Shown here: piece by piece, positions 5,171-23,059 of the stretch
How positions within the stretch are numbered: the stretch's first letter is position 1
Layout: each line of letters starts with the position of its first letter
The notes under the pieces: generated by a model
The model's database searches: none
Seen by the model: the letters and a program-made list of their open reading frames with translations, nothing else
What the model was told of the DNA's origin: nothing
Source: Saprospiraceae bacterium
Lineage (GTDB): Bacteria; Bacteroidota; Bacteroidia; Chitinophagales; Saprospiraceae
Reading direction: 5' to 3'
Assembly: GCA_024103195.1 (NCBI GenBank)
Contig: JAGFIW010000234.1
Location: 1 to 64,000, forward strand
DNA: 64,000 nt
Program-made: the position numbers and the translations under genes

Positions 5171-6518
5171 CTGTCCAAAACGTTTTAGCTTGTCAAATAT
5201 AGGCACTGATAACCAATTGGTTATATCTTGATAGCGTCCAAATTTCAAAAGCACTCTTCCCACTTAGAACAGGGATAGAGCTTCTGGTGGCGGTTTATCT
5301 GATCTGAAGGGCCTGTCCAAGAACTCCCTCATGTCCAGCTTGCTGAAGAAATAGACCCTGATCATGGTGACCAAATTGGACAGGTTCCAGGAGTATTTTG
5401 CCCTGTTGATGAGATATTTCAGCAGAAGGATGGCAATCATGGCTGTCCAAACCTGGATCAGTACGGCATTGTAATTTGTGCCGACGAATGATTTGATCCG
5501 CAAGGACTTGTTGATCTGTTTGAAGAAGCATTCGATGTCCCAGCGAGACCTGTACAGGTCGGCAATGGTTTTTGCTGTCCATGACATCTGGTTGGTCAGG
5601 AAAACCATCTTGTGGTCATCTCAGGGTCAATACGGGTAACGAAACGAAGCGGTTTGGAATAGGTTCGGGAAGTCTTTGAGCCCGTCAATACGATATCCTG
5701 ATCGGCTACCAGCCCATCCAGCTGATCCTGAATGCCATAGGACTCCACAATCTCGGTGAGTGATCTGTCCTTGAGCCGGGTGACGAATAAGATTCCTCTG
5801 CTGTCCAAATCCTTCAGCCAGGCAAAGTCCACGTAGGCCCTATCCACGACAAGCACACTTCCGGTTGGAAGTTGCAACCCCTTCGCAGCCTTCAGGTCGT
5901 GCTTGCGCCCATCACTGACTTCGGCGAAGCTGGGTAGCTCGGAATCATAATCCAGGACAGTGTGGATCTTCATGGCACCCTTATGAGTCCGATACTTGGC
6001 CCTAGTCAGACAAGTTCAGACACAGGCTGACCAGTGTTGAATCCATCAGGTAGATCTTACGCTTGAACTAATGACCATATTTACGTCTACGCTGTAGATT
6101 GGGTTCATACATCTCCAACAGGGCAAAGTAGTAATCCATGAAGAGCTGCCATTCCCGGTTGGCATTGATATAACTCACAGAGGACTTACTTGGCACTCGT
6201 TCGATGCCCAAATGGGACAGATTACCATAAGCAGACTTTAACCCCTGACTGATGTCTCTTACTGAATCCACTTTGGCCAGATGGACAAAGAGCATGCTCA
6301 CAAGGTGGGTCCAGGAATTGATGCCTTTGACATGCTTGTCTGTTTGCCTGGTCTTGACGATGCGGCCAAAAGAATGACGATCCAGAAGACTTGTGATCTG
6401 CGAGAATAGAGATAAATTTGCTGTGGACATGGCTGACTAGGACTGTCGTAATCCTATGGAAGAAATACCAGGCTATGTCAACCTTTTACGCCTTCAGGCA
6501 ACAAAAACGTTTTGGACG
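5171..6518. mobile_element. IS4-type insertion sequence with matching terminal inverted repeats
   Basis: The left end reads CTGTCCAAAACGTTTT (5171-5186). The right end, read inward on the minus strand, is CCGTCCAAAACGTTTT (complement of 6502-6517 or so). These form a 14-base perfect inverted repeat (GTCCAAAACGTTTT) about 1.35 kb apart, enclosing a broken IS4-family transposase. I could not find a convincing target-site duplication in the flanks. The right end lies only about 46 bases before the start of the downstream barrel gene. Confidence 0.75.
5264..6430 (-). pseudogene. IS4-family DDE transposase, inactivated by a stop and two frameshifts
   Basis: Three collinear minus-strand pieces together make one IS4-type transposase of about 385 residues. 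The N-terminal DUF4372-like part (6430-6068: SLFSQITSLLDRHSFGRIVK) ends at an in-frame TAG (6068-6070). The reading continues as KRKIYLMDSTLVSLCLNL, with the first catalytic Asp, then loses frame with another TAG near 6003 (apparent one-base insertion). It resumes as the segment with the second Asp (VLVVDRAYVDFAW). A one-base deletion near 5608 separates the final piece, with YRSRWDIECFFKQINKSLR, the Y-x2-R-x3-E signature of IS4 elements. With all three lesions no full transposase can be made. Confidence 0.85.
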
Positions 6519-7218: not shown

Positions 7219-7465
7219 TGTAAATTCCGGAGCAAAGTGACCCCCCTATTCCGGCATATTGGCCCCCCTGTTGCAAGTAACAGTCTGGTTGTGATAACCA
7301 TCATTTGTTTTCATAAACGAAAGCAAATGGCAACAAGGACAATCGGTATGGAACAATACAACATGATCCTCAGATTGCAGGAACTGGGGTTTTCAATCAA
7401 AGGCATTGCCCGACAGCTCGGATTGGCTCGCAACACGATCTACTGGTATTTGTCTGACCAGGGCG
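7219..7465 (+). mobile_element. IS21-type element, left-end remnant
   Basis: A TGT-starting end at 7219 is followed by two direct copies of a repeat built on ATTCCGG and ending in C6 (about 7224-7246 and 7248-7268). This resembles the multiple terminal repeats of IS21-family elements. The repeats are followed by the first 45 codons of an istA-like gene. Similarity stops around 7461, and 30 bases later the yifB stop codon begins, so the rest of the element is gone. Confidence 0.6.
7327..7461 (+). pseudogene. IstA-like transposase N-terminus, truncated
   Basis: The ATG at 7327 opens a helix-turn-helix characteristic of IS21 IstA proteins: MEQYNMILRLQELGFSIKGI, then ARQLGLARNTIYWYL. After about 45 residues the frame runs on into sequence antisense to yifB with no further similarity, so only the DNA-binding N-terminus survives. 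A normal IstA has several hundred more residues including a DDE domain, followed by the ATPase IstB; neither is present. Confidence 0.65.
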
Positions 7466-7495
7466 GTTATAGTCCTCCAGGTGCCAATGAAGGCT

Positions 7496-9055
7496 TCAGC
7501 CCGCCCAACCTTCGCGGTCCAGGCTTCTGTATTGGATGGCCTCAGCCAGATGTTCCACCTTGATGTCCGGACTCCCTGCGAGGTCGGCCGCCGTTCTGGC
7601 CACCTTGAGAATGCGGTCGTAGGCACGGGCGGAGAGTTGGAGGCGTTGCATGGCCGTCCGGAGGAGGGTCGTTCCTGCCTGGTTGATCCGGCAGACATCT
7701 TGGACCATCCGGCTGGGCATCTGGGCGTTGCAGTGGATGCCCGGCCATTCGCGAAATCGCGTCTCCTGGATCTCCCGGGCACTTTCCACACGGGCGCGAA
7801 TATCCTTGCTGGTTTCGGAAGGCCGTTCAAAACGGGACAATTCCTCATAACTGACCGGCGTCACTTCAACGTGAAGGTCAATCCGGTCCAGCAGGGGACC
7901 CGATATCCGGGTCAGATAGCGTTTGACCACGCCGGGTCCGCAGACACATTCTTTTTCAGGATGGTTGTAATACCCGCAGGGGCAGGGGTTCATGCTGGCT
8001 ATCAGCATGAAACTGGCGGGGTATTCGATGCTGATCTTGGCCCGGGCGATGGTGACCCTCCTTTCTTCCATGGGTTGCCGGAGCACTTCCAGGACCGTTC
8101 GCTTGAATTCCGGCAATTCGTCGAGGAACAAAACGCCATTATGCGCGAGGGAGATTTCTCCGGGATGGGGGTTGCTGCCTCCGCCCACGAGGGCCACATC
8201 GCTGATGGTGTGATGGGGACTACGGAAAGGCCGGTTGGTGACCAGTCCTCCATGCGTGGGGAGCACGCCGGCGACCGAGTGTATTTTGGTTGTCTCCAGG
8301 GCTTCGTGCAGGGTGAGTGGAGGCAGGATCGTCGGCATCCGCCGGGCCAGCATGGTTTTTCCTGCGCCCGGAGGCCCGATGAGGATAGCATTGTGCCCCC
8401 CGGCAGCGGCCAACTCGAGAGCCCGTTTGATATTTTCCTGACCTTTTACGTCGGCAAAGTCCACCGGATATTGATCCTGCTGTTCGGCAAACAGCTCGCG
8501 GGTTGGGATAACGGTGGGATGAAGGGTTTGATCGCCCGACAGGAAATCGACGGCTTCCCGAAGGTGCTCGATCCCGTAAACGTCCAGATCGCTGACGATG
8601 GCGGCCTCCCGGGCATTGGCTTTGGGAAGGAGTATCCCTTTGTATTTTTCTTTTCGCGCCTGGATGGCAATGGGCAGGCTTCCTTTGACGGGCCGGAGGC
8701 TCCCGTCCAGTGAGAGCTCACCCAGCATCAGATACCGGTCCAGGCGGTCGGCCGGCAATTGATCGCTCGAGGCGAGAATGCCCAGGGCAATGGGCAGGTC
8801 ATAGGAAGATCCTTCCTTGCGCACATCGGCAGGCGCCAGATTGATCACGATCTTCTGACGGGGCATCCGGTACGCAGAATTTTTAAGCGCGGATTCAATA
8901 CGGTGAAAACCTTCCTTGACGGCGTTGTCCGGCAACCCCACCATGTGATAACCCACCTTGGTCAGGGCACTTACCGCACCACCCGTATGTACCTCGATGG
9001 TAATGGTCCGGGCATCAATGCCATGGACGGCACTGCTATAACATTTGACCAGCAT
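7496..9055 (-). CDS. yifB: YifB/ComM-family Mg-chelatase-like AAA+ ATPase
   Basis: 519 residues, the normal family length. The N-terminal ChlI-like subdomain (about 1-170) is followed by the AAA+ core with Walker A GPPGAGKT (about 227-234), Walker [12 protein letters not shown] (about 307-317) and the Mg_chelatase_C helical domain ([20 protein letters not shown]). In Vibrio and Haemophilus the relative ComM is a hexameric helicase that promotes branch migration during natural transformation; that role here is inference. It starts two bases after the stop of the acyl-CoA ligase gene, so the two are probably cotranscribed. Its 3' end borders the IS21 remnant, but the C-terminus looks complete. 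Confidence 0.93.
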
Positions 9056-22721: not shown

Positions 22722-22729
22722 CAAAGGTA
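22722..22729 (-). promoter_or_regulatory. TAnnTTTG promoter of aspS
   Basis: The minus strand reads TACCTTTG, 28 bases before the aspS ATG. A TTTAATTG stretch about 20 bases further upstream could contain the -33 box. Confidence 0.5.
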
Positions 22730-22739
22730 TGAGAAGTCA

Positions 22740-23001
22740 AGCCCAATTAAACCCTAATCGTGCATTTGAAATACACGATTAGCCCAATGGTCCAGACGAA
22801 GCTTGCTTGTCTGGATCAAGGAGAGGACGAAACCCGCTCCGATAGCAGGTTTGGGAAGACGCTTTGGTCTTCTTCCACGATTAGGTTCAACCCAGACATT
22901 GAGCGTGATTGAATTTCTTTCGATCAAAATATGAGTTAATTCATTCACGCTCAATCGTCTGCGCCTCGCGCAAAAAATGCATTAGCATTTTTTGGGTTGA
23001 A
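22740..23001. repeat. Palindrome-packed spacer between aspS and the M28 peptidase gene
   Basis: Five hairpins fall in about 260 bases. (1) CTAATCGTG (22754-22762) with CACGATTAG (22774-22782), extended inward by ATTT-G-AAAT. (2) TCCAGAC-g-AAGC with GCTTGTCTGGA (22791-22815). (3) GAAGAC-6-GTCTTC (22855-22872). (4) A 17-base arm starting TTGAGCGTGA (22899-22915) that pairs 16 of 17 with 22938-22954. (5) AAAAAATGC-ATTA-GCATTTTTT (22972-22993). CACGATTAG recurs at 22876-22884, and TTCAACCC (22886-22893) is complementary to GGGTTGAA (22994-23001). A 66-codon minus-strand frame spans 22754-22954, but it ends inside hairpin 1 and looks incidental. The stretch could be a dispersed palindromic repeat, a small mobile element or a structured RNA. 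Confidence 0.7.
22972..22993. terminator. A/T-rich hairpin with T-run, possible terminator
   Basis: AAAAAATGC-ATTA-GCATTTTTT is a perfect nine-base stem with a tetraloop and a terminal T-run on both strands. It may end any transcript of the palindromic spacer. It stands about 40 bases before a TACCTTAG box (23033-23040) that may be the weak promoter of the M28 peptidase gene. Confidence 0.45.
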
Positions 23002-23059
23002 AGGGAGGTTGGCCACAGCACCCGACTTTGCCTACCTTAGCCACCTTAACAGCAATTCC

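Follow-up and report, generated by a model that had tools for sequence, protein, structure and literature searches.

The mobile elements most comparable to the locus analyzed here are a MITE (a gene-free mobile DNA element) and two families of transposons. MITECca01 of Cardinium is a MITE derived from IS982 (PMC9769881). IS1247, a member of the IS1380 family, is flanked by 5-bp direct repeats (PMC3281130), and IS1380 serves as the outgroup for the piggyBac transposons of eukaryotes in PMC10813416. We analyzed a cluster of hairpins between aspS and an M28 peptidase gene in the window (the whole stretch of 64,000 nucleotides from contig JAGFIW010000234.1 of a Saprospiraceae bacterium), and we interpret it, with a probability of roughly 0.9, as a MITE of 245 bases; that the feature is a mobile, non-autonomous element we hold to be very nearly certain. 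Like MITECca01, it is short, lacks a transposase gene, has terminal repeats resembling those of a full IS, and belongs to a family dispersed mainly between genes; unlike MITECca01, its family has ends and duplications that point to IS1380, with no parent found in the same genome, and interiors that are hairpin-rich and very variable. The IS1380 family (for example IS1247 and ISEcp1) resembles it in CCC-type ends, in the 5-bp AT-rich duplication and in a matching repeat at three loci (L205, L210 and L196), but the window element has no transposase gene and is unable to move by itself. The CCC ends and TTAA-like duplication are also reminiscent of piggyBac, a likeness of appearance, although the duplication is a 5-bp TTNAA in the window family and a 4-bp TTAA in piggyBac.

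The earlier note on this DNA had described five hairpins, taking their mutually exclusive pairings as typical of switches and the density of palindromes as a mark of dispersed mobile repeats. These palindromes exist and go well past chance: the region folds as RNA at -104.9 kcal/mol, compared with -70.8 kcal/mol for dinucleotide shuffles (z = -6.9), and as DNA with z = -9.0, and none of 200 shuffles attains its folding energy in either form. Dense local hairpins are indeed present, six in number rather than five (Table 1), and both exclusive pairings exist in the sequence. Locally, CTAATCGTG (22754-22762) pairs with CACGATTAG (22774-22782) as proposed, within a 14-nt arm that is 93% complementary; at a distance, CCTAATCGTG (22753-22762) pairs perfectly with CACGATTAGG (22876-22885), over 10 pairs, the 12 originally counted requiring a bulged C. 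The long stem, given as 17 bases, measures 18 nt with 94% complementarity (22898-22915 with 22938-22955), and the TTCAACCC and GGGTTGAA sequences said to close the 3' half were both located (22886-22893 and 22994-23001).

Table 1. Coordinates of the element and its flanking features in the window
Feature	Position	Strand	Remarks
Putative -7 box of aspS, CAAAGGTA (TACCTTTG on the minus strand)	22722..22729	-	Conserved in G004; flanks the element
Left target-site duplication, TTAAA	22747..22751	.	Family duplication 5 bp, consensus TTNAA
Whole element, read as a non-autonomous element (MITE), CCC...GGG, 245 bp	22752..22996	+	Copies: C61, C144 (degenerate), G002 C189 and C7
Left terminal inverted repeat, CCCTAATCGTGCATTTG	22752..22768	+	Two mismatches to CCCAAWTCRTGCATTAG
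Hairpin 1, left terminal repeat then its own inverted copy	22754..22782	+	Shared with C61, where a T-A pair is replaced by A-T
Hairpin 2, GGTCCAGAC...GTCTGGATC	22788..22818	+	Missing from C61
Hairpin 3, GACGAAACCCGC...GCAGGTTTG	22826..22854	+	Kept in C61
Hairpin 3b, GAAGACGCTTTGGTCTTC	22855..22875	+	Missing from C61; G002 C7 has a comparable one
CACGATTAGG, the left end in inverted form; candidate for the right terminal repeat of an internal unit 1	22876..22885	+	Suggested by tandem elements L174 and L232
TTCAA, TTNAA-type 5-mer at the putative junction of two internal units	22886..22890	.
Putative unit 2, CCC and long 18-bp hairpin 4	22891..22963	+	Conserved in C61, recognizable in C144 and G002
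Hairpin 5 and degenerate right terminal repeat	22971..22996	+
Right target-site duplication, TTGAA	22997..23001	.	One mismatch to TTAAA
Putative -7 box of the M28 peptidase gene, TACCTTAG	23033..23040	+	Conserved in G004; flanks the element

The 245-bp element contains no transposase-like open reading frame, its right terminal repeat is poor and eroded, and its two flanking duplications agree at four of five bases. The second CACGATTAGG lies directly 5' of TTCAA, which is followed by CCC, and the same order of end, duplication and end is found in the tandem MITEs L174 and L232 (G114/MAG-53), which are adjacent pairs with a common 5-bp duplication between them, a tandem insertion into the same target. 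We infer that the window element may consist of two units that meet at TTCAA, a TTNAA-type site; neither unit was found as a standalone copy. Such a composite would account for the second CACGATTAG, with its alternative pairing, as well as for the closure by TTCAACCC and GGGTTGAA; these sequences look like internal ends and duplications of the two units. An integron attC site, prompted by the RYYYAAC-like ends, was considered and dropped, because the matching R' site is absent and the ends are explained by the duplication plus CCC.

The search for other copies that the earlier note had called for revealed that the sequence is not unique: there are two clear copies and one degenerate copy (contig C144) in the window's own genome and two in a sister species (G002). 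The second clear copy (G000:C61:13200-13424, minus strand) is 85-88% identical to the window copy in blocks, and the two differ by whole hairpins (2 and 3b are gone from C61, and an extra one stands between hairpins 4 and 5). Its terminal repeats are clear (CTAATGCATTTTTTGGG pairs with the C61 left end over 19 nt at 84%), its flanks are TTTAA/TTTAC, and its gene neighbors, which on one side include what appears from the translation to be an S41-peptidase-like gene, differ from those of the window site. Of the two G002 relatives, C7 was found by BLAST and by a covariance model of the 3' half, and the other, C189, has the flanks TTCAT/TTCAT and is 79% identical to C61 over 96 bases. Because the model found nothing convincing outside the genus among 398 genomes of the family, the interior of the element appears to be genus-level; weak model matches in G012 and G064 proved on inspection to be unlike the element, the plasmid collection held no match to it, and an exact interior 20-mer did not occur in the genome and viral contigs. 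Another type of MITE, alike in its ends but with a different interior, is present in the own genome as a 302-bp element (L058, C66:123-424) that resembles elements of about 300 and 482 bp in G004, another sister species (L098-L111), and a subterminal hairpin core similar to this type also occurs in G165 (L162 and L163).

The ends are spread much more widely. A terminal repeat, CCCAAWTCRTGCATTAG, matches the ends of the window element and bounds elements of 100-500 bp across the host's family. The C61 left end matches many places in G004, some of them in inverted pairs about 290 bp apart, and a pattern search for the terminal repeat with up to three mismatches gave 43 places in G004 and nine in the own genome (one and zero, respectively, for the reversed control); where such places are paired, they enclose elements measuring 179-487 bp (a length that takes in two duplication bases on each side), flanked by 5-bp repeats, among them TTTAA/TTTAA, TTCAA/TTCAA and ATAAA/ATAAA. 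When at most one mismatch is allowed, 52 of the 398 family genomes contain the repeat, single matches being partly due to chance (the reversed control also matches about a dozen genomes once), and two other genomes have 46-47 places each. The exact 19-mer was found at 61 loci of the genome collection, mostly in Saprospiraceae MAGs but also in Sediminibacterium, Campylobacterota and others; the viral contigs gave no match to the terminal repeat. Terminal inverted repeats are clear in 50 distinct paired elements of the family. The 5-bp duplication is exact in 32 of them (mean 8.6 and maximum 16 after shuffling), no 6-bp duplication occurs, and the 5-mers show a preference for TTNAA, a pattern to which the window element, TTAAA-CCC...GGG-TTGAA, conforms. 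Relatives with the same ends, scattered through many Bacteroidota, make this an ordinary kind of mobile repeat. Two elements with these ends lie outside the Bacteroidota, in a Campylobacteraceae MAG (L214, 165 bp, flanks ATTAA/ATTAA) and a Nitratifractor MAG (L223, likewise 165 bp). Among the openly available papers on IS1380 and MITEs that were consulted, none describes an IS1380-derived MITE of Bacteroidota, and the family is, provisionally, apparently undescribed.

At the orthologous site in G004, aspS and the M28 gene are still divergent and about 160 bp apart, with no such element between them. The spacer blocks CAAAGGTA and GCCTACCTTAGCCA are common to G004 and the window; elsewhere the G004 spacer has diverged too far for an empty site to be recognized to the exact base. 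These conserved blocks resemble the -7 boxes of Bacteroidota (consensus TAnnTTTG); if they are such boxes, the element would sit upstream of both promoters and outside both leaders, apparently having inserted between two putative divergent promoters. Elsewhere in the window lie transposase-like reading frames split over frames at 5264-6436 on the minus strand, which from their translations look IS4-type, and the start of an IstA-like (IS21) frame at 7328-7560, which appears from its translation to be cut off beside a ComM/Mg-chelatase-like gene.

An IS1380 transposase gene lies beside the exact repeat, at a distance of about 10-80 bp, in three of the 61 loci (these having been fetched by the exact 19-mer only). 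L210 carries a truncated DDE_Tnp_1_4 gene (PF13701) some 80 bp inward of the exact repeat. Searching with this fragment recovered IS1380 elements from the family and from the order, among them L237, whose 449 residues score 264 bits against the NCBIfam IS1380 model NF033539 (cut-off 180, E = 1.9e-78) and which has three- and four-mismatch versions of the terminal repeat at its ends. L205 holds a full-length open frame of 450 residues, 52% identical to L237, between the exact repeat and a three-mismatch inverse (flanks TTTAA/ATGAA, which do not match), and L196 holds a C-terminal piece of an IS1380 transposase beside the exact repeat. The one-contig genome G603 carries seven IS1380 copies with ends CCCAAAAAGTTCATTAG and CCCAAAAAGTTCAATGG (CCCAAA), each with an exact 5-bp AT-rich duplication, so that CCC ends and this type of duplication are common to the MITE family and these IS1380 copies. 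With the transposase found at the same ends outside the genus, IS1380-family transposons are likely to be the parents of the window element's MITE family. PF13701 was not detected in the five genus genomes searched, all of them drafts and the MITE-rich G004 included, and no close IS1380 match was found in the other MITE-rich draft genomes; short-read MAGs lose multicopy IS, yet the same pattern of absence recurs across several genomes. Because no IS1380 transposase was found in any genus genome, the current mobilizer in the genus can be assigned to this family by inference only.

That gap, together with three Flavobacteriales loci with an exact end some 340 bp upstream of a gene for an IS1595-like transposase, leaves some room for a different transposase moving the same MITE family. 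These loci (L183, L187 and L236, from the MAG RE-26jul17-241) are diverged copies, all truncated by contig ends. IS1595 elements usually give an 8-bp duplication. The 5-bp duplication of the family instead matches the G603 IS1380 copies and that reported for IS1247 (PMC3281130), and at three loci IS1380 genes stand within about 10-80 bp of these ends, so we consider a non-IS1380 mobilizer unlikely. Movement as REP/BIME-type palindromes by a Y1 (RAYT) transposase has virtually no probability: palindromes are dense and the own genome encodes three Y1 transposases, but the window element does not occur in the flanks of the Y1 genes, and 5-bp duplications and paired terminal repeats are not REP features; we therefore rejected the association. 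By eye, two of these genes are flanked by different, tandem-like repeats (L028 in C222, 300-700; L027 in C250, 1-420).

The proposal that the two exclusive pairings serve aspS or the M28 gene as an RNA switch or a structured leader draws on the very stable fold and on the presence of both pairings, and in the computed RNA ensemble the distal partner of CTAATCGTG is favored (about 0.9, versus 0.1 for the local one). That partner, however, is missing from the C61 and G002:C189 copies that were checked; the alternative fold is thus not conserved, and the alternative pairing is peculiar to the window copy. An alignment of three copies breaks many of the pairs, no Rfam family matched near its gathering score (at a permissive E-value only chance matches appeared), copies adjoin unrelated genes, and the G004 spacer and the position relative to both putative promoters speak against a leader. 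An alternative structure conserved at the same gene, the mark of a riboswitch or RNA leader, was not found, and we regard a switch as highly improbable. Of the two roles originally offered, the mobile repeat is supported by the dispersed copies, the terminal inverted repeats, the 5-bp duplications and the absence from the orthologous site, and the switch, lacking a conserved partner or site and an Rfam match, is not.

As a MITE, the element combines short length and the lack of a transposase gene with shared terminal inverted repeats, a target-site duplication and several dispersed copies. A transposase, probably of the IS1380 family, would recognize the MITE ends in trans and cut at the CCC/GGG ends, and insertion would follow at TTNAA-like sites with duplication of 5 bp; on this reading the hairpins would owe their existence to terminal and subterminal inverted repeats and not to selection for an RNA fold. 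The mismatched duplication, the eroded right end and the lack of a detected IS1380 transposase in the genus indicate that the window copy is probably an old, immobile insertion. It is also conceivable, though we think it quite improbable, that the hairpin-rich interiors persist because they have a function, for example as regulatory RNA that is transcribed or as an enhancer of transposition by foreign IS1380 transposases; some are recognizable between genera, G004, the own genome (C66) and G165 having a subterminal hairpin core in common. If the enhancer variant were true, foreign IS1380 transposases could move MITEs in genomes that have none.

A defined mobile element thus takes the place of a speculative RNA switch. 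Several genomes hold dozens of MITE copies with no detected transposase, which makes what moves them a testable question, and TTNAA-CCCAAWTCRTGCATTAG...GGG-TTNAA provides a searchable signature for this IS1380-type family of MITEs, in Saprospiraceae as well as in other Bacteroidota.
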